Positions 1 through 28,783 of a stretch of 35,278 nucleotides of DNA are shown one piece after another. The DNA is taken from the NCBI GenBank assembly GCA_002733545.1, contig NVVX01000003.1:1-35278 (forward strand). The letters run 5' to 3'. Below the pieces are notes generated by a model, which was not told the DNA's origin, ran no database searches, and worked only from the letters and a program-made list of their open reading frames with translations. The position numbers and the translations under genes are program-made. Origin of the DNA: Alkaliphilus sp. (lineage in GTDB: Bacteria; Bacillota; Clostridia; Peptostreptococcales; NVVX01). Positions within the stretch are counted from its first letter, which is position 1; each line of letters begins with the position of its first letter.

Positions 1-2146
1 GATATTCGCTTTTTTATGGTTGCTACTTTTGAATTTCAACAAAAATACAATATTGCCATATGTTCGCTCAAATGCTATTGATAAAATCAATGCAGAAGTA
101 GGCTCGTTATCGACCATAGTTGATATGGGAGTAGATAGAATCCGTATTAGAACAGAATTAGATGCGGCTAAGGAAATGGATTTTGAAAGTTTAAAACCTT
201 TCTTAGATGTACTCGTAGATAATGGACATTTTCATAAAATAGGTTTGGTTTTTTTGGATGGAACTATTACCGATACATCTGGATTAGTAAACTCACCTCT
301 CCCTGATAGGGAGTACTACAAAGAAATTTTTAATAAAGGTCCTATAGTAACAGCTCCAATTCGTTCTGCATTTGATGACAGTTATATTGTACCTATCACT
401 ATGCCTATTACAAGTAACAATAAGACTGTTGGAGCATTAATAGGTGCTATACCTGCTAATGATATTGAAGAAATTATTTTCAGCCTATCTATTAATAATG
501 CTGGATACGGATTTTTAAGCGATATTGATGGGAATATGTTGATGCATCCATATCTAGACGAAATCAAATACACTAATGTATTTGAACTAGTTGATGAAGA
601 AGTAAAAGAATATGGCACAAAAGAGTATTACCTTAAATATACAGATAAAAATGGAATAGATAGATATATATTCTATAAATCACTGCCAGACACTGGCTGG
701 TTAGTAGGTATAGATGTTCCAGCTACTGCTGTTTATTATATTTCAAACAATATTATTAACAAATTAATGTTAGCTTCTTTTGTAAGCTTTATTTTGTTTA
801 TTACTTTGATTTACTATAGTACTATTAAACTATTTAAGCCAATGGACAAATTAATTAATGAAATGAAAAAAGCTGAAAAAGGAGATTTAAGCGTACAAAC
901 TAATATAGTAAGAAAAGATGAAATATCTGAAATAGCTATTCAGTTTAATAAAACAATAGCAGATATATATGCAAGAGATGAAGAAATAAAAGCTTTAAAT
1001 GAAGAATTGGATGCTAATTATATAGAACTTCGAGATTCTAATAATGAGATAAATAAAACTAACGAAAAACTTATGTTAGCATATGAAGAAATTACCAAAA
1101 ACTTTCAAAACGCTAAACTTGTTAATAAGTTAAGTGAAAAGCTATTTTCCGTTTCAGATTTTAGTATTATTGTAAATGGGGTTTTAGCTTACACACATGA
1201 GATGATTAATGCCACGAAATCTGCTATATATTTATTTGATTCTGATATAAATAAATACACAATTAGAGAGTCAATAAATTATAGTAATGAGGAAGTAAAA
1301 AAACTAAAATTTAGAATACATGAAGGCAGTTTTGCATGGATATCTGAAAACAAATGTGAACTGTATAGTGAAAATGCATATGATGATGATAGATTCATAC
1401 CAAAAACTTTGAGCAGAAAAGGAAAAATGTGCTACGAGCTTCCTATTTTAAGTGAAAAGAATGAACTAATTGGAGTAATGAGCTATATCTCTAACGATCT
1501 AGATATGAAACATATTCATTATTTTAAACAATTAGCTAAAATGATTTCTATCGAAATTGCAAACAATGGATTATCAGTTAAAATTGAAGAAACATATATA
1601 GACGTGCTAATTGCATTAATAAAAGGCTTAGAACTAAAAGATAAATATACTAGTGGACATAGCGAAAGAGTAATGGAATATAGTATTATGATAGGGGAGA
1701 GAGTTGGACTTTCAGTGCAGGACATGAAAGTCCTTCAATATGGAAGCATGATGCATGATATTGGTAAAATAGGCATCCCTGATGAAATACTTTTGAAAAA
1801 GGGGTCTTTAACAAGACAAGAATACGAACTAATTAAAACGCACCCTGCAAATGGTGAATCGTTCATGAGTAGTTTGAGATTTTTAGAAGATACACTCCCT
1901 ATTATAAGAAATCATCATGAAAGAATAGACGGAAAAGGATATCCTGATAATTTAGATGGCGATAATATCCCAATTTTAGCAAGAATCGTTGCAATTGCAG
2001 ATGCATATGATGCAATGAGTTCTGAGAGACCATACAGACATGCTTTAACGAAAGAAAAAGCAATAGAAGAGCTAATTAATAATAGTGGTACACAGTTTGA
2101 TTCTGATTTTGTGCAGATATTTATTGGATGCATTAACTACACTTAG
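1..2146 (+). CDS. Membrane sensor with extracellular Cache-like domain, TM, HAMP, GAF and HD-GYP (c-di-GMP phosphodiesterase-like); 5' truncated by window edge
   Basis: Frame is open to base 2 (IFAFLWLLLLNFNKN...), so the listed TTG start at 20 is probably inside a TM helix of a longer gene. HD-GYP motifs HSERV, MHDIGKIGIPDEIL, NHHERIDGKGYP and DAYDAMSSERPYR are present; HAMP-like segment after the second TM. Confidence 0.9.
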   Translation, partial: IFAFLWLLLLNFNKNTILPYVRSNAIDKINAEVGSLSTIVDMGVDRIRIRTELDAAKEMDFESLKPFLDVLVDNGHFHKIGLVFLDGTITDTSGLVNSPLPDREYYKEIFNKGPIVTAPIRSAFDDSYIVPITMPITSNNKTVGALIGAIPANDIEEIIFSLSINNAGYGFLSDIDGNMLMHPYLDEIKYTNVFELVDEEVKEYGTKEYYLKYTDKNGIDRYIFYKSLPDTGWLVGIDVPATAVYYISNNIINKLMLASFVSFILFITLIYYSTIKLFKPMDKLINEMKKAEKGDLSVQTNIVRKDEISEIAIQFNKTIADIYARDEEIKALNEELDANYIELRDSNNEINKTNEKLMLAYEEITKNFQNAKLVNKLSEKLFSVSDFSIIVNGVLAYTHEMINATKSAIYLFDSDINKYTIRESINYSNEEVKKLKFRIHEGSFAWISENKCELYSENAYDDDRFIPKTLSRKGKMCYELPILSEKNELIGVMSYISNDLDMKHIHYFKQLAKMISIEIANNGLSVKIEETYIDVLIALIKGLELKDKYTSGHSERVMEYSIMIGERVGLSVQDMKVLQYGSMMHDIGKIGIPDEILLKKGSLTRQEYELIKTHPANGESFMSSLRFLEDTLPIIRNHHERIDGKGYPDNLDGDNIPILARIVAIADAYDAMSSERPYRHALTKEKAIEELINNSGTQFDSDFVQIFIGCINYT

Positions 2147-2194
2147 AGCCAGAGTTATTATAGCAAAACCTATGATTGTCTTTTAGATGAGGCT

Positions 2195-2331
2195 TTTGAC
2201 GAAATGTTGTCAGGCTCCGCCCAAGTCGTTATAAAAGAATCTCCAATTTCAAGTTACGGGCCTGAAGCCCCGAGATTTTTAAGGAGGATTCTCTTGAAAC
2301 TTTGGCAAGTCGTTATAAAAAAAATAGAATC
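2195..2331 (+). repeat. Dispersed modular repeat, copy 1 (end module fused to a second unit lacking the large hairpin)
   Basis: GAAATGTTGTCAGGCTCCGCCCAAGTCGTTATAAAAGAATC...GGAGGATTCTCTTGAAACTTTGGCAAGTCGTTATAAAA; shares modules with the copies at 7395, 9109 and 9638. Confidence 0.8.
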
Positions 2332-2372
2332 TGGATAAACTAATAGTAGAGAACCTATTAGGAGAGGATTTT

Positions 2373-2654
2373 ATGAGAAGTGAAGAGAATAGTCGAGGAA
2401 ATTTTTTTAGTAGCATATCAAGTTCTGTTGAATTTTTGTACAATAGAGTATTTGACGAAAGATCAGAAAATACAGATCAAAGCGATACATATGCAGACTT
2501 AGTACATAAAGCGCATGAAGAATGGAAACATGCAGAAAATTTATTTCACAATATTTCAGATCCAGACTTAATTGATTACGCAGTATATAATTTGGACGCA
2601 GCCAAAAGCAGATATATTTATCTTTTGAAGAAAGTTAGAGAAGAAAGAGAATGA
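2373..2654 (+). CDS. Small DUF2508 (YaaL-like) protein
   Basis: 93 aa; ...HEEWKHAENLFHNISDPDLIDYAVYNLDAAKSRYIYLLKKVREE is DUF2508-like; RBS aggagagg upstream. Confidence 0.75.
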   Translation: MRSEENSRGNFFSSISSSVEFLYNRVFDERSENTDQSDTYADLVHKAHEEWKHAENLFHNISDPDLIDYAVYNLDAAKSRYIYLLKKVREERE

Positions 2655-2668
2655 AGTAAAAATAAAAT

Positions 2669-2713
2669 CATAATTCGATGGAGTAGTTTTTAACTACTCC
2701 ATCGAATTATGAG
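2669..2713. repeat. Perfect 21-bp-stem palindrome (3-nt loop)
   Basis: tCATAATTCGATGGAGTAGTT-ttt-AACTACTCCATCGAATTATGa; T-rich flank only in the minus-strand reading direction. Confidence 0.9.
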
Positions 2714-2781
2714 AAAAAAACACAATATAATGTTGGTGTAGAGGCGAAGTTTGTATTATAATGTGCTTAAGAGGAAAAGAG

Positions 2782-2860
2782 TTTTATAACGACTTGGGCA
2801 TTCATCCTACCCCTTGTGGGGTAGGATGAATGCCTGACAAAGTTTCAAGAGAATAATCAT
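2782..2860 (-). repeat. Dispersed modular repeat, copy 2 (half element, inverted)
   Basis: TTTTATAACGACTTGGGCATTCATCCTACCCCTTGTGGGGTAGGATGAATGCCTGACAAAGTTTCAAGAGAATAATC; 17-bp perfect stem GGCATTCATCCTACCCC/GGGGTAGGATGAATGCC. Confidence 0.85.
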
Positions 2861-2916
2861 TTGTAAGGAAGCGCAATTATATGTAGTAAAATATGGGATT
2901 TTAAAAAGGTGGTATT

Positions 2917-3936
2917 ATGAAGGTAGGACTTAGAACTATAAAAACAGGCATAGCGGTAAGTTTATCTATGTTGGTCGCAAATCTTTTAGGTATTGACAGC
3001 TCATTTATTATTATTGTTACAGCATTCATAACTATAAGACCAACAGTTGTTGATTCGTGGAAAATAGGCATAAACAGGATATTAGGAACTTTTATTGGTG
3101 CGTTTATAGGAATTCTTTTTTTATGGATTTATCCAACTAATTTTTTGTTAGCTGGAATTGGAGTAGTTATAGTAATTTGGATAATAAATCAACTAGGGTG
3201 GAAAGAAGCTGTAACTATTGGAGGAATTGTGTTTACATCTATATACTTATATGCAGAGGGCAACTATTTTTATCATGCATTAAGTAGATTGGTGGCTACT
3301 ATAATTGGAATAACAATAGCTGTAACAGTAAATTATTTTATTTATCCTCCTGCTTATGTTGAAAAAGCAACAACTAAAATGGCTAATGCTATGAAGGATA
3401 TTTGGGCAATACATATTAATCTGATAGAAATGATCATTGAAAAAGGCGGAAAGCTAAATAGGCTAGAACAAGATGAAATATATAAAATAGAAGAAGAATT
3501 GAATGAAGCAGAAGAACTTTTAATGCTTCAATCAAATGAAGAAAGGGTGAGAATTTACAACGATAACAATTACAAAGAAAAGCAAATAATTCTTAAAATG
3601 ATAAAAAAAACAACGCAGTATCTTCATAATATATATGGAATAATGCAAGAGAATATGGACGCAGAAGTCGTAGGTTTGTATAGTGAGGATTTAAAAGTTA
3701 TTAAAAATGAATTACTGCAACACAAAGACATTGAGTTGAAATTGTTGTATAATAAGGGAACAGATAATTTTTTAGAAGAAATGAAATCTGTGAGCAAAAT
3801 TAAAAACAGGATAAAATTCGAAAAAAATGTAAACATGTATCCAACAGAAGATATAGTTAAAATGTTTGTTTGGATGTATAATCTAGAAGAAACCTTATCT
3901 AAATTCAACATTATTGCAGGCCGACAGGAAAACTAG
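2917..3936 (+). CDS. FUSC/aromatic acid exporter family (ArAE_1/DUF939-like) membrane protein
   Basis: 339 aa; N-terminal MKVGLRTIKTGIAVSLSMLVANLLGIDSSFIIIVTAFITIRPTV...RILGTFIGA then cytosolic C-terminal domain. Confidence 0.8.
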   Translation: MKVGLRTIKTGIAVSLSMLVANLLGIDSSFIIIVTAFITIRPTVVDSWKIGINRILGTFIGAFIGILFLWIYPTNFLLAGIGVVIVIWIINQLGWKEAVTIGGIVFTSIYLYAEGNYFYHALSRLVATIIGITIAVTVNYFIYPPAYVEKATTKMANAMKDIWAIHINLIEMIIEKGGKLNRLEQDEIYKIEEELNEAEELLMLQSNEERVRIYNDNNYKEKQIILKMIKKTTQYLHNIYGIMQENMDAEVVGLYSEDLKVIKNELLQHKDIELKLLYNKGTDNFLEEMKSVSKIKNRIKFEKNVNMYPTEDIVKMFVWMYNLEETLSKFNIIAGRQEN

Positions 3937-4916: not shown

Positions 4917-6932
4917 GTGAAAAAGAAAGGGATTACTAAGTTTTTTATTCCAGACACAAGAATATACTTAATCATCATAGGGGTATTAGTTGTGTTGATT
5001 TCTATGCACGAGCCAATTATTGGAGTGTTTGGCGTAGTTTTAATAGCATATTTAATTTGGTATAATAGGAGAACAAGTAATATTAAGAGAGAAGAATGGA
5101 CTAAATATATTGAGGAATTATCATCAGAGATTGATTCAGCGACAAAGCAGGCTATATTGAATATGCCAATACCCTTGACAATTATTGAGTTTGACGGCAT
5201 GATAACGTGGTATAATCCGCAGTTTATAGAAATGGCGGGCAAAAATGATTTGTTAGAAAAAGACATACAAGAGGTTATACCAAATTTTAATTTAAAAGAT
5301 GTGTTGCAGAATAAAAATGATCAAATAAACGAAATAAAGATAAGAGACGGATACTTTAAACCGGTTTACAACATAATCAAAATTACAGAGGTGCAAAAGA
5401 CTAAATATATAATTATGATATATTGGCTAGATAAAACAAGCTATAGAGATACCAAGAAAAAATATTTAGAAGAGAAGATGATTGTAGCATTGATACAAGT
5501 CGATAACTATGATGAGGTAATGCAAAATACTGAAGAAGCGGATAAGCCGCTATTAATTGCAGAAATAGAACGTAAGATAAGTCTTTGGGTTAGTGGTATT
5601 GAGGGCGTGATGAGGAAATATACAAAAGACAAGTTCATTGTTATTTTTGGAAACAAACATATGCAAAACCTAGAGGAGAAAAGGTTTGATATTTTAGATG
5701 AAATAAGAGAAATTTATGCAGGCAATAAAATTCCTGTTACGCTAAGTATTGGTATAGGTATGGCGGGTGAAAACCCTATGGAATTAGGAATATGCGCAAA
5801 GGCTTCAAAAGACTTAGCCCTTGGAAGAGGAGGAGACCAAACTGTTGTAAAAAGAAAAACAAAGACAAATTTCTACGGTGGTAAAATGAAGGCGGTAGAA
5901 AAAAGTACAAAAGTAAAATCTAGAGTTATTTCACATGCCTTAAAACAACTAATTGAGCACGCTGATAATGTGTTGGTTATGGGGCATAAACATTCTGACC
6001 TTGATGCGTTTGGTTCTGCACTAGGAATTTATAGAGCAGCAAAAAACTTGAAAAAAGAAGCGTATATTGTATTAAATAGTTCGAATCCGTCTATAGAAAC
6101 ACTATATAATAGAATTATGAAAATTGATGAGTACAGAAAGAGTATTATATCTTCTGAGGAAGCAAAGATGAGGTTAAAGAATAAAAGTTTAGTAGTGGTT
6201 GTAGATACGCACAGGCCTAGTTTTACAGAATGTCCAGAGCTGCTTAAACACGCTAAGGATATAGTGTTAATAGATCATCATAGAAAAGGGACAGAATTCA
6301 TTGAAAATACTGTCCTAGGCTACCATGAAACTTATGTTTCATCAACTAGTGAGTTAGTTACAGAGCTTCTTTACTATATGGATGATAAAATGAATATTAA
6401 ACAAATCGAGGCAGAAGCTCTGCTGGCAGGAATTGCGCTTGATACAAAGAACTTCACGTTTAAAACAGGAGTAAGGACATTTGAAGCTGCAGCTTTATTA
6501 AGAAGGGCTGGGGCAGATACAATTTTAGTGAAGCAACTTTTCCAAGACGATTTTGATACAATAATGGCAAGAGGAAAAATTGTTAAAAGTGCTGAAATTT
6601 ATAGAGATGTTATTGCTATATCATGCTATGAGGGAGAAGAAAACACACAATTAATAGCGGCTCAAGCGGCAAATGAATTGCTGAACATAAAAGGAATTGT
6701 TGCATCTTTTGTTTTAGGGAGAAAGGATGAAGGTACTATCTTTATTAGTGGCAGATCTATGGGCAGCGTTAATGTTCAAGTGATTTTAGAACAATTAGGA
6801 GGAGGGGGTCACTTAACTGTAGCAGGGGCTCAGATAGAAAGATCAAACATGAATGAAGCAAAAAAAGAGATAAAAAAACTTATTGATAATTATTTTGAGG
6901 AAGGTGATAGCAGTGAAAGTAATTTTAACTGA
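4917..6932 (+). CDS. gdpP: Cyclic-di-AMP phosphodiesterase GdpP (2TM-PAS-degenerate GGDEF-DHH/DHHA1)
   Basis: DHH motifs [30 protein letters not shown] and DHHA1 [15 protein letters not shown] at 4917 follows GCAGGAGGG, so preferred over ATG 4896. Confidence 0.93.
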
Positions 6933-9979: not shown

Positions 9980-11266
9980 ATGCCATCAGTTGTGGTAATT
10001 GGAGCTCAGTGGGGAGATGAAGGGAAAGGAAAAATCATTGATTTTCTAGCGAAAAAAGCAGATGTAATTGTGAGAGCGCAGGGTGGAAATAATGCGGGAC
10101 ATACAGTAATAGTAGGAGAAAACAAGCATACTTTTCATTTACTACCTTCGGGAGTTTTGTATGAGGAAAAAATGAATATTATAGGTAATGGGGTAGTTAT
10201 TGATCCGCAGGCTTTTTTAGATGAGATCAAAACTTTGGAGAGTAGAGGGATTAATACCGCAAATATAAGGATTGACGAGAGGGCACATGTAATATTTCCG
10301 TACCATAAAAAAATTGATGTGCTAGCGGAAGAAGAAAGAGGAGAAACAAAAATTGGAACTACTAAAAAAGGGATTGGCCCATGCTATATGGATAAGGTTG
10401 AAAGAACAGGGATAAGAGTAGGCGAAATGATAGATAAAGAGTTATTTAAGCAAAGATTGTTTCCGCAGATTGATAGAAAGAATAAAATCCTTGAAAAAAT
10501 TTACAATGTTGAAGGTTTTTGCAAAGAAAGTATGCTTAGGGATTACGAACAGTATGCTTCCCAGATAAAAGAATACGTGACAGACACGACGATTATCGTG
10601 CATGAAGCATTAGTGTCAAATAAAAGGGTTTTGCTTGAGGGAGCGCAAGGAGCGTTGTTAGATGTTGATTTAGGGACGTACCCGTACGTTACTTCATCTC
10701 ATCCAACTTCTGGAGGGTTTTGTGTTGGCGCAGGAGTAAACCCTTTACAAATTGATGATGTATTAGGAGTGGTAAAGGCATATACAACTAGAGTTGGTTT
10801 TGGCCCTTTTCCAACAGAATTAATAAACGAAACGGGGGATAGAATCCGCAAAGAAGGTAATGAATTCGGGACTACTACTGGAAGAGCTAGAAGGTGTGGA
10901 TGGTTTGATGGTGTTGCTGTGAAATATACAGCACGTATAAATGGAATGACAGGAATTTCATTAATGCTCTTAGATGTGCTTAGTATATTTGATAAGATAA
11001 ATATTTGTACTGGATATGAGTATGAGGGAAAAACAATTCATAACTTCCCTGCAAGTATTAAAGAGCTAGCAAAATGCAGACCTATATATAAAGAAGTTGA
11101 TGGGTGGAAAGAAGACATCACTAGTGTTAAGACCTTTGAAGAATTGCCTGATAATGCAAAAAAATACATCAAAATTATTGAAGAATATCTGAAAATACCA
11201 ATAAAAATAGTTTCAGTAGGACCAAAACGAAGCCAAACAATAATTAGAGAAGAAATTTTTGAATAG
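9980..11266 (+). CDS. purA: Adenylosuccinate synthetase
   Basis: MPSVVVIGAQWGDEGKGKIIDFLAKKADVIVRAQGGNNAGHT...; GTTKKGIGPCYMDK; GFGPFPTEL. ATG 9980 preferred over 9971. Confidence 0.97.
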   Translation: MPSVVVIGAQWGDEGKGKIIDFLAKKADVIVRAQGGNNAGHTVIVGENKHTFHLLPSGVLYEEKMNIIGNGVVIDPQAFLDEIKTLESRGINTANIRIDERAHVIFPYHKKIDVLAEEERGETKIGTTKKGIGPCYMDKVERTGIRVGEMIDKELFKQRLFPQIDRKNKILEKIYNVEGFCKESMLRDYEQYASQIKEYVTDTTIIVHEALVSNKRVLLEGAQGALLDVDLGTYPYVTSSHPTSGGFCVGAGVNPLQIDDVLGVVKAYTTRVGFGPFPTELINETGDRIRKEGNEFGTTTGRARRCGWFDGVAVKYTARINGMTGISLMLLDVLSIFDKINICTGYEYEGKTIHNFPASIKELAKCRPIYKEVDGWKEDITSVKTFEELPDNAKKYIKIIEEYLKIPIKIVSVGPKRSQTIIREEIFE

Positions 11267-24830: not shown

Positions 24831-25649
24831 ATGTCAGTTAAGTTTTGTACATTAGCAAGCGGTAGCAAAGGGAACTGCCATTTTATTTCAGATGGAGACA
24901 ATTATTTGTTATTTGATGCAGGATTGAGTGGGGTAAAAATTCAAAAGAGGCTTATAGAAATAGGAATAAAACCTGAACAACTTACAGGAATCGTGATTAG
25001 TCATGAGCATAATGATCATATTCAAGGGGCAGGAATTTTATCGAGAAGATTCGATATCCCACTATACGCAAACGAAGGCACTTGGGATGTTATGAAAAAC
25101 AAAATTGGAGAAATAAAATTAAGAAATATGAAGGTTTTTTCTACTGGGAAATTGTTTGAGTTAAATAGTTTTATAGTTAACCCATTCAAGATTTCTCATG
25201 ATGCTAGAGAGCCTGTGGGTTTCTCTATAGAAAACAATGGAGTAAATATTTGCATTGCGACTGATTTGGGGTATGTAGATGAAACTCTTATCAAGCATAC
25301 CGCAGGTGCAGATCTAGTGGTTTTAGAATCTAATCACGATGAAGAAATGCTAAAAGCTGGAAGGTATCCTTACTCCTTAAAAAGAAGAATTTTATCAGAA
25401 GTAGGACATTTGTCTAACGAAAATGCTGGATTAGCAATATTGAAAATGATTGATAAAAATGTAAAAAAAATAATATTAGCGCATTTAAGTGAAGAAAATA
25501 ATTTTCCAGAGTTAGCATATGAAACAGTGAAAAATGTATTGGAGAGAAATAATGTTTCGGTGGAAAAAGACATCAATCTGTATGTAGCACATAGAGACAG
25601 CAAAGTGCATGAATTTAAGCAGAAATGTTTGAAGTTAGCTTTTGCGTAA
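24831..25649 (+). CDS. walJ: MBL-fold hydrolase WalJ/YycJ
   Basis: KFCTLASGSKGNCHFISDGDNYLLFDAGLS; HEHNDHIQG; DLVVLESNHDEEML; wal operon position. Confidence 0.93.
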   Translation: MSVKFCTLASGSKGNCHFISDGDNYLLFDAGLSGVKIQKRLIEIGIKPEQLTGIVISHEHNDHIQGAGILSRRFDIPLYANEGTWDVMKNKIGEIKLRNMKVFSTGKLFELNSFIVNPFKISHDAREPVGFSIENNGVNICIATDLGYVDETLIKHTAGADLVVLESNHDEEMLKAGRYPYSLKRRILSEVGHLSNENAGLAILKMIDKNVKKIILAHLSEENNFPELAYETVKNVLERNNVSVEKDINLYVAHRDSKVHEFKQKCLKLAFA

Positions 25650-25686
25650 TTGTGTATATGAATTTTTGTCAAAGGAGGACTTTAAT

Positions 25687-26910
25687 ATGGACTTCAAGGA
25701 AAATGAAAGAAGCAATGACCAGCGCATTTTTACAGGTGAAACGGAAGAAGTCATAACAAAAGAGATGATTAAAGAACTTTGGTCTAGCGATTTAAGAGAA
25801 ATGGAAGAATCACTAGGTAACCGAATGAAAAAAAGAAGGTATTTAAGCACTTTTGTCCTCCTAGCATTGAGTGCTATCTTAGGCAGCATAATTACAATAG
25901 TAGCAATGCATTTTTACTTGCCCGAAATAATTAATCTAAATGAGTTTAAAACAAATGAGAGAGAAACCTCTCTAGAAATTAAAACGAGTGTATTTACACT
26001 AGTTGCGAGAAAGGCAATGCCATCGGTTGTCGGAATAACAACTATTATTGAAGACCGAAATGAGTTTATGCTAGAACAAAACAGGGGAGGTCTTGGAACA
26101 GGGGTGATTGTTGATGACAGAGGATATATTTTGACTAACTCACACGTCATTAGCGATGGAGATGTCGACAAAATAAATGTGATACTACACGAGGGAACAA
26201 TAATTGAGGCAGAGGTAGTGTGGCAAGATAGAATTCTTGATTTAGCTGTGATAAAAGTAGATGCAATAGATTTGCCGGTAGCTGAGCTGGGCAATAGTGA
26301 CTTGCTAGAGGTTGGGGAGATTGCAATAGCAATAGGAAACCCACTAGGTCTTCATTTTGATAGAACGCTAACACAAGGTGTAATTAGCGGGCTTGACAGG
26401 ATGATACCAATAAGTAGTACTGAAACAATGGATAATTTAATTCAAACGGATGCATCAATTAACCCAGGGAATAGTGGGGGACCACTTTTAAATGCTAGAG
26501 GTCAAGTGATTGGAATTAACACTGCAAAGATAAAAGATGGTGAGGGCTTAGGATTTGCTATTCCAATAAATATTGCAAAGCCAATAGTATCACAAATAAT
26601 AGAGCATGGTAGCTTCAAAAGAGTTTTATTAGGTGTGAGAGCTGTTGACGTTGCAGTGTTTGAGCAAGTGACTGGAAAAGACGTCGAAGTAAGCAAAGGT
26701 GTTTATATTATTGAAGTTATTGAGAATACCTCAGCAGATTTAGCGGGGCTTAGGAATGATGACGTAATTATTAAAATGGATGGCAGAGAAACAAATACGA
26801 TGCAACAATTTATAAGGAACTTATTTACGTACAAACACGGAGATAAAGTGGAGTTAACAGTTGTAAGAAACAATAAAGAAAAAGTGATAGTTGTAGAGTT
26901 TATTGAGTAA
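25687..26910 (+). CDS. htrA: HtrA/DegP-like membrane-anchored serine protease with PDZ domain
   Basis: TM; GLGTGVIVDDRGYILTNSHVI; DASINPGNSGGPLLN; PDZ SADLAGLRNDDVIIKMDGR; ATG 25687 after aaaggagg. Confidence 0.93.
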   Translation: MDFKENERSNDQRIFTGETEEVITKEMIKELWSSDLREMEESLGNRMKKRRYLSTFVLLALSAILGSIITIVAMHFYLPEIINLNEFKTNERETSLEIKTSVFTLVARKAMPSVVGITTIIEDRNEFMLEQNRGGLGTGVIVDDRGYILTNSHVISDGDVDKINVILHEGTIIEAEVVWQDRILDLAVIKVDAIDLPVAELGNSDLLEVGEIAIAIGNPLGLHFDRTLTQGVISGLDRMIPISSTETMDNLIQTDASINPGNSGGPLLNARGQVIGINTAKIKDGEGLGFAIPINIAKPIVSQIIEHGSFKRVLLGVRAVDVAVFEQVTGKDVEVSKGVYIIEVIENTSADLAGLRNDDVIIKMDGRETNTMQQFIRNLFTYKHGDKVELTVVRNNKEKVIVVEFIE

Positions 26911-26959: not shown

Positions 26960-26991
26960 CTTGCCAGTATTGTGGGCAAGCCTTGTTTTTT
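26960..26991 (+). terminator. Putative intrinsic terminator between htrA and rlmH
   Basis: CTTGCC-agtattgtg-GGCAAG-ccTTGTTTTTT. Confidence 0.6.
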
Positions 26992-27024: not shown

Positions 27025-27480
27025 ATTGACATTACAATAATTTCAGTTGGTAAATTGAAAGAAAAACACTTTAGGGAAGCAGAAAAAGAGTATCTTAACA
27101 AAAAAAGAAAACATTTCAAACTGAGATGTATTGAAGTAGCAGATGAAAAAGCTCCAGCAAATCTAAGTAGAGTTGAAATTAAAAAGATAAAGGATAAAGA
27201 AGCAAAAAAAATACTGCATTATATCAAAGACGCTCATTTTGTGATTGCGCTAGTTATCAAAGGCGAAATATTATCAACAAAAATGCTTGCGAACAAAATT
27301 AAAACAATCGATTGTGAAGAAAGTAGAAATATTGTTTTTGTAATTGGAGGTTCTTTAGGGTTGTCGGAGCTTATCATAAAGAGAGCTAATTTTAGCCTTT
27401 CGTTTTCAAGAATGACTTTTCCGCATCAACTAATGAAAATAATACTATTGGAGCAAATATGCAGATTATGTAGGGAATAG
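27025..27480 (+). CDS. rlmH: RlmH-type SPOUT methyltransferase, C-terminal tail missing and no ATG/GTG/TTG at the conserved start (ATT at 27025; possible decaying gene)
   Basis: IDITIISVGKLKEKHFREAEKEYLNKK...ADEKAPANLS...NIVFVIGGSLGLSELIIKRANFSLSFSRMTFPHQLMKIILLEQICRLCRE*. Canonical RlmH ends ...EQIYRAFRI.....YHK. GGAGG 7 nt before ATT. Confidence 0.8.
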   Translation: MDITIISVGKLKEKHFREAEKEYLNKKRKHFKLRCIEVADEKAPANLSRVEIKKIKDKEAKKILHYIKDAHFVIALVIKGEILSTKMLANKIKTIDCEESRNIVFVIGGSLGLSELIIKRANFSLSFSRMTFPHQLMKIILLEQICRLCRE

Positions 27481-27547
27481 GTGAGCAAATTTGTGGTAGG
27501 AAACGTGCATGTTATGGTAGCTATTTACTACACTTCGCTAAACTGGA

Positions 27548-27949
27548 TTACTTATGGTAAGCTTGATTATTTATAATGCGAAAGGCCCTATAAATTTGTT
27601 CGTATATTATAGTTAGTAGCAAACCATCACACATCTTCAAAGGACTAATTGAGATTGTTTCATCAACAGAAGAGTATGGAAAGTTAAATATTATTGCTAT
27701 GTTAGAAACTCCAGAAACAGCAAAACTGTTTAACTTAGTAGCTAGAAATTCCGAAGAGATTAATGTGCTTGATGTGCAGATTTGAATCACATACGAATTC
27801 TTGGGTATTTTTTTTTCGGCTTCTTTTGTATTCTTACATTGGAATAATTTTATCTTACAATAACTAGAGAGTCTTTTGTTGTACTCTTGTATTGCGTCTT
27901 TATAAAAGCTTTCGAGTTTTTCTGATGCTACAATAATATTGATTTTCAT
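27548..27949 (-). CDS. Divergent RlmH-like SPOUT protein retaining the C-terminal tail
   Basis: MKINIIVASEKLESFYKDAIQEYNKRLSSYCKIKLFQC...; ends LLLTIIYEQIYRAFRIINNQAYHK; ATG 27949 after GGAG. Confidence 0.8.
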   Translation of the reverse strand: MKINIIVASEKLESFYKDAIQEYNKRLSSYCKIKLFQCKNTKEAEKKIPKNSYVIQICTSSTLISSEFLATKLNSFAVSGVSNIAIIFNFPYSSVDETISISPLKMCDGLLLTIIYEQIYRAFRIINNQAYHK

Positions 27950-27997: not shown

Positions 27998-28411
27998 CTA
28001 TAGGCACTTATTGCAGATACCTTTAATATATGCATGATATTCTGTTATAGCACAGTCACTTAGTTCAGCAATAGCATGTTTAGACAAGTCATAACTGAAA
28101 TCATAAACTTTTTTGCATTTTATGCATTTAAAGTGACCATGGTTAGTAATGTCTGAATCATATCTTATTTCATTCTCTTCGACCAAGATAGAAGTAATGA
28201 TTTTTTTCTCTACAAAAAGATTGAGCGTATTATAAACTGTAGTCTTCGATAAAGTCATTAACTCAGGAGCTAACGATACAAAAATTTCATCAACAGTTGG
28301 ATGAGATTTTTGAGTTGTAAGGAATTCATAAATTTTAATGCGCTGAAGGGAAGGTTTTACTCCATTGTCTTGCAAGACTTTTTTAATAGCGTCAGCATTT
28401 ATTAGATTCAT
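27998..28411 (-). CDS. perR: Fur-family regulator, PerR-like
   Basis: DNGVKPSLQRIKIYEFL...SHPTVDEIFVSLAPELMTLSKTTVYNTLNLFVEK...HGHFKCIKCKKVYDF...GICNKCL; two CxxC; next to rubredoxin. Confidence 0.85.
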   Translation of the reverse strand: MNLINADAIKKVLQDNGVKPSLQRIKIYEFLTTQKSHPTVDEIFVSLAPELMTLSKTTVYNTLNLFVEKKIITSILVEENEIRYDSDITNHGHFKCIKCKKVYDFSYDLSKHAIAELSDCAITEYHAYIKGICNKCL

Positions 28412-28618: not shown

Positions 28619-28783
28619 TTATTCTTCAAAGACAACAAAAAACTCTTTTCCTACACCACAGACAGGGCAAACCCAATCTTCAGGGATATCAGCAAAAGAA
28701 GTTCCTGGCGCAATATCTCCATCTGGGTCACCTAACTTCGGGTCATAAACATAACTACAAGGTTCACAAATGTATTTTTTCAT
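28619..28783 (-). CDS. Rubredoxin (54 aa; below the ORF-track cutoff)
   Basis: [54 protein letters not shown]; CxxC...CPVCG. Confidence 0.96.

Follow-up and report, generated by a model that had tools for sequence, protein, structure and literature searches.

The window analysed here is a stretch of 35,278 nucleotides from Alkaliphilus sp. (contig NVVX01000003.1, positions 1 to 35,278, forward strand), and it contains two convergently oriented RlmH-like genes, referred to here as RlmH-alpha and RlmH-beta (Table 1). An earlier note made from the sequence alone had described them as adjacent RlmH paralogues with complementary defects, and the open reading frames, the motifs kept and lost, and the spacing of the convergent stop codons all read as it described. 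The alpha reading frame closes with ...LLEQICRLCRE and a stop codon at 27480, and retains the FVIGGSLGLS and TFPHQLMK motifs without the YHK tail. The beta gene starts at an ATG at 27949 and stops at 27548–27550; its product begins MKINII with a KRL nearby and lacks the DEKAP segment. FNFPYSS replaces its GGSLG loop and KMCDGL its TFPHQL, but the protein is RlmH-related at both ends, as had been noted.

Table 1. Features of the RlmH-alpha/RlmH-beta locus (coordinates are those of the window).
Feature	Coordinates	Strand	Basis
walJ-like metallo-beta-lactamase gene	24831-25649	+	ancestral rlmH neighbourhood
htrA	25642-26910	+	ancestral rlmH neighbourhood
RlmH-alpha, putative SAM-binding tail-less subunit, ~150 aa	27025..27480	+	ORF reading, PF02590, NF000985, AF2
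alpha SAM bight 2, FVIGGSLGLS, E. coli G103-L108 region	27337..27366	+	G107 in 28/28 alphas, 0/27 betas
alpha SAM bight 3, TFPHQLMK, E. coli T126, P128, H129	27415..27438	+	H129 in 28/28 alphas, 0/27 betas
alpha truncated C-terminus, EQICRLCRE, without Y152, H153, R154 equivalents	27451..27477	+	Y152/H153 in 0/28 alphas, 140/140 canonical
gap between convergent stop codons, 67 bp	27481..27547	.	ORF coordinates
RlmH-beta, putative tail-donating subunit, 133 aa, without SAM pocket	27548..27949	-	ORF, PF02590, AF2
beta catalytic tail EQIYRAFRIINNQAYHK, E. coli E138, R142, Y152, H153, R154	27551..27601	-	intact; 27/27 betas
beta degenerate SAM-pocket region (FNFPYSS...KMCDG)	27617..27691	-	alignment, residue counts
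beta KRL, equivalent to E. coli R25/R26 (RNA site, tail monomer)	27869..27877	-	R26 in 27/27 betas, 6/28 alphas

The true start of alpha is uncertain, the in-frame candidates being ATT at 27025 and TTG at 26983. Between 27018 and 27030 the window reads TTGAC where its congener G002 reads TTGAAC, i.e. there is one base fewer at the start of alpha, such that the TTG start of G002 is out of frame in the window; this one-base difference could be either real or an assembly error. The walJ-like gene and htrA lie just before alpha, in agreement with the wal-operon position (walJ-htrA-rlmH) that had been assigned to it. On the minus strand, genes for a Fur-family regulator (27998–28411) and a rubredoxin (28619–28783) are located directly upstream of beta, and the three might form one transcript.

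Both proteins exceed the PF02590 cut-off of 27 bits (alpha 141.8, beta 75.4), and against the NCBIfam RlmH equivalog NF000985 (cut-off 172 bits) they score 176.5 and 70.8 bits, respectively. Neither combines a SAM pocket (GGxxG loop, TxPH) and a catalytic tail (YHK/R) in a single chain: alpha has only the pocket and beta only the tail, and the pair has both jointly. An intact rlmH elsewhere in the genome, which the earlier note had held out as a reason to discard its reading, is not present, as no third RlmH copy was found in the window's genome (2.77 Mb, 97.6% complete).

RlmH is described as a homodimer throughout the literature searched. In the E. coli enzyme the SAM pocket, K11, K42 and R43 are contributed by one monomer, R25, R26, E138, R142 and the tail residues Y152, H153 and R154 come from the other, and mutants at E138, Y152, H153 and R154 are inactive (PMC5430550); the earlier note's statement that the active site is composite across the dimer matches this structure. 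We counted these residues in 140 canonical, 28 alpha and 27 beta rows, the canonical control set consisting of contig matches from a profile search with the alpha alignment, all of which are canonical RlmHs. Pocket residues are kept by the canonical proteins and the alphas and lost from the betas (canonical/alpha/beta: G104, 139/24/0; G107, 140/28/0; L108, 140/28/1; T126, 140/28/2; P128, 139/27/0; H129, 140/28/0), and the opposite is seen for R26 (139/6/27), R142 (140/9/27), Y152 (140/0/27), H153 (140/0/27) and R154 (140/1/27). E138 is retained in both subunits (24/28 alphas and 26/27 betas), and K11 and R43 are E. coli-specific where they align and are uninformative. Among the RNA-site residues, K42 is kept in alpha and R26 and R154 in beta. 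As these counts follow the roles of the E. coli monomers, each subunit keeps essentially the half belonging to its role. The alpha C-termini have no common replacement motif; few interface residues of beta are unchanged, and many betas have T, S or K where E. coli has I74.

The earlier note had proposed looking for co-occurrence of both genes in related genomes, and an alpha/beta pair is found in at least 30 of ~1,057 surveyed genomes belonging to at least 14 families, most of the source sequences apparently being draft metagenome assemblies. Both congeners (G001 and G002) carry the same convergent pair, rather than lacking the defects as might be expected of a sequencing error or a recent pseudogene. 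Within the order, 14 of 299 genomes contain the pair, 265 have an RlmH match without beta, and 20 have no match; nearly all of the 265 contain one strong full-length RlmH match, with a few that are partial or frameshifted. A profile built from the betas yielded eight further pair genomes within the class, two from family f59 (in which all six genomes have the pair) and six from other classes of the phylum. Three proteins ranking high in the beta-profile list (G418, G640 and G341) were rejected as betas, being short canonical RlmHs with both motifs present. None of the 30 pair genomes was found to contain a canonical RlmH, and a forecast fixed before the last search, that every new beta genome would carry an alpha lacking the tail and would be without a canonical gene, was correct in six of six.

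The arrangement of the two genes varies. They are convergent in the window's genus and in G234, G919, G1044, G696 and G951, and in tandem, alpha then beta, in G156, G171, G189, G174, G195, G365, G671, G439, G655, G1053 and G713. In G089, G604, G327 and G377 they are 3.5–46 kb apart, and in G032, G040, G049, G043, G405, G461 and G672 they are unlinked or on separate contigs.

Several relatives in family f2 have no RlmH match (G014, G025, G061, G098, G103, G127, G144, G147 and others), and the enzyme is thus apparently losable in the order. Divergent single RlmHs without a beta are present in G667 (L234, 2470–2912), where the tail is YDK, the catalytic histidine is absent and MTMLHHM replaces TFPHQLM, and likewise in G583 (family f42, genus g310).

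Between the window genome (G000) and G002, alpha and beta have the same dN/dS of 0.21 (Fisher p = 3e-6 and 5e-5, respectively), and against G001 the values are 0.21 and 0.12; these ratios, a test the earlier note had put forward, indicate purifying selection on both genes and lend no support to its alternative of a decaying ancestral copy. In the G000–G002 comparison, all six nucleotide changes in the beta tail (codons 116–133) are synonymous. Across genomes, the identities among alphas correlate with those among betas (Mantel rho 0.79, p = 0.0002), for which shared ancestry alone could suffice. G001 (L065, 2870–3844) has frameshifting indels in both alpha (two) and beta (one), with the adjoining walJ and htrA intact, and these may reflect either a recent joint loss, the activity being dispensable there, or assembly errors.

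AlphaFold2 models of both proteins have the RlmH fold, with pLDDT of 90.3 for alpha and 93.3 for beta, and compare with 1vh0, 1to0 and 4fak at query-normalised TM scores of 0.87–0.92, the input alignment being one of canonical RlmHs that favours that fold. The pair genomes with an assembled 23S, five in number with 11 copies in total, all have an unaltered H69 target hairpin; no 23S copy covering H69 is assembled in the window's genome.

We propose that alpha and beta very probably make up an obligate heterodimeric RlmH, a 23S rRNA m3Psi1915 methyltransferase that arose through complementary degeneration. The earlier note had suggested an obligate heterodimer, and the recurrence of the pair without a canonical RlmH, the residue partition and the purifying selection all point towards one. 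Alpha, at the ancestral walJ-htrA-rlmH locus, would bind SAM in its knot, and beta, having lost SAM binding, would be its partner in the antiparallel SPOUT dimer and would insert the tail at its own C-terminus (E-R-Y-H-K), along with the KRL that contacts RNA, into the alpha pocket. The enzyme would thus have a single composite active site rather than two, and neither subunit should be functional without the other. We infer heterodimer formation, the loss of SAM binding by beta, the activity and the target nucleotide. Neither chain is well supported as an RlmH by definition, since neither has both halves; that the two chains function as one RlmH active site is well supported.

Other explanations can be weighed against these observations. 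An assembly or frameshift artefact of one normal gene could be imagined from the one-base difference from G002 at the alpha start, and some canonical rlmH genes elsewhere do look frameshifted (G068, G427). However, both open reading frames are open throughout their length and the pair recurs in at least 30 genomes in varied arrangements, including unlinked ones, so that the probability of an artefact is close to nil; this, along with a recent pseudogene, is ruled out by the congeners and 27 further genomes. Decay of both paralogues, with m3Psi1915 dispensable in these lineages and the copies drifting, might account for the joint frameshifts in G001 and for the absence of RlmH from some relatives (the 20 order genomes without a match), but is hard to reconcile with the low dN/dS of each gene or with the retention of complementary halves in at least 14 families. 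Neutral drift would not retain Y152 and H153 in all 27 betas and H129 in all 28 alphas, and we consider decay very unlikely.

The remaining possibilities assign the proteins different functions. Beta is strongly diverged outside of its tail and lies at a distance from alpha in about one third of the genomes, and could have adopted a new role, as a regulator, an RNA chaperone or an enzyme with another target, leaving alpha to act by itself or as a homodimer that uses a different tail. Yet the residues invariant in beta are the catalytic ones of RlmH, despite loss of the SAM pocket; no alpha was found without a beta; the alpha C-termini offer no shared motif to substitute for a tail; and E. coli RlmH loses its activity when the tail is mutated (PMC5430550). 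A new role for beta is thus improbable, although less so than decay. A heterodimer acting at a target other than Psi1915 is about as remote a prospect as decay, given that no canonical RlmH is left in the pair genomes, that alpha scores above the RlmH equivalog cut-off, that the RNA-site residues are retained (K42 in alpha, R26 and R154 in beta), and that H69 is unchanged wherever it is seen.

A heterodimeric RlmH would have some parallels among known methyltransferases. In the Trm6-Trm61 type (tRNA m1A58), one SAM-binding and one SAM-less paralogue form an obligate hetero-oligomer derived from a homo-oligomer after duplication, but those are eukaryotic Rossmann-fold proteins catalysing a different reaction, whereas alpha and beta are SPOUT proteins. 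The canonical RlmH homodimer (YbeA, OrfX; PF02590, COG1576) shares with the pair the fold, the SAM-pocket motifs of alpha, the catalytic tail of beta, the locus of alpha and the composite active site between monomers (PMC5430550), but each of its chains contains both halves and two sites could form, in contrast to the two genes and one possible site proposed here. A heterodimer of wild-type and R135A nosiheptide-resistance methyltransferase (NHR) showed the need for one functional subunit in a SPOUT dimer (PMC4409310), although it is a laboratory construct with reduced activity rather than a pair of natural paralogues. For yeast Ymr310c/Ygr283c (COG2106), a role as the inactive subunit of a SPOUT heterodimer with a catalytic partner has been proposed, but they belong to another SPOUT family, the pairing is raised there only as a possibility, and no complementary split of tail and pocket is described (PMC1829167). 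The literature searched on RlmH paralogues and on RlmH or SPOUT heterodimers contains no report of a natural split RlmH.

If the proposed heterodimer is correct, the pair represents a natural dissection of the composite site deduced in E. coli, repeated by evolution, and a heterodimer within a SPOUT family whose known members are homodimers. It allows direct tests of whether an RlmH dimer can manage in vivo with a single active site, and of whether the complexity of an obligate heterodimer can result from reciprocal loss rather than gain of function. For genome annotation we note that automated calls may label both halves as RlmH, or one half as a pseudogene.

The history of the pair appears to differ for its two members. 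Alpha is at the walJ-htrA locus in the window and in G002, G365, G439, G604, G405 and G327, and beside walJ in G234 and G377, neighbours that place it at the original rlmH locus. The betas likely share a single origin, judging from trees in which they are monophyletic (100/100 with all columns; 97 SH-aLRT with pocket and tail columns removed) and from a larger set in which a single beta clade is not rejected (p = 0.30). A single alpha clade was likewise not rejected with the first tree (p = 0.30), but was rejected after the addition of more alphas and of canonical genes from the family of G377 (p-AU = 2.9e-5; p-AU = 0.014 without G377), indicating that the tail was lost more than once. The pair would have originated when a duplicate, beta, was released from SAM binding, and the native copy, complemented in trans, would have lost its own tail on more than one occasion, fixing the dependence.

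G377 offers the clearest example of tail loss and may illustrate these events. Its alpha lacks only the YHK (...KILNNEP) and is nested among the canonical RlmHs of its own family (98/91; 72% identical); of five other family members searched, four carry a complete canonical gene without a beta, and one has no match. The G377 beta is on the same contig 14 kb from alpha, and is nearest to the betas of another family. It adjoins an IS200-like Y1 transposase gene (L281, G377:C18:127500-146500, 136–3477) and is flanked by two copies of a TnpB C-terminal fragment with a 300-nt exact repeat in common, suggesting recent mobility. This single draft assembly suggests that beta came in horizontally and that the native tail was lost afterwards. 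More generally, and tentatively, as we put its chances a little below even, beta may be a tail-donor spreading between lineages, partly via mobile elements, after which native RlmHs repeatedly and irreversibly lose their tails, a constructive-neutral ratchet from homodimer to obligate heterodimer that would be caught mid-way in G377.

Two RlmH copies ~4 kb apart (5991–6480 and 10243–10732) are also present in a genome of the Bacilli, that of Virgibacillus alimentarius (L116); one copy is canonical and the other has EPYIFQG replacing YHK. The latter possibly represents an early step, or else the result of an SCC-type element inserting at the rlmH 3′ end, and integration of the SCC type at this position was also considered as a possible source of tail loss, both here and in G377.
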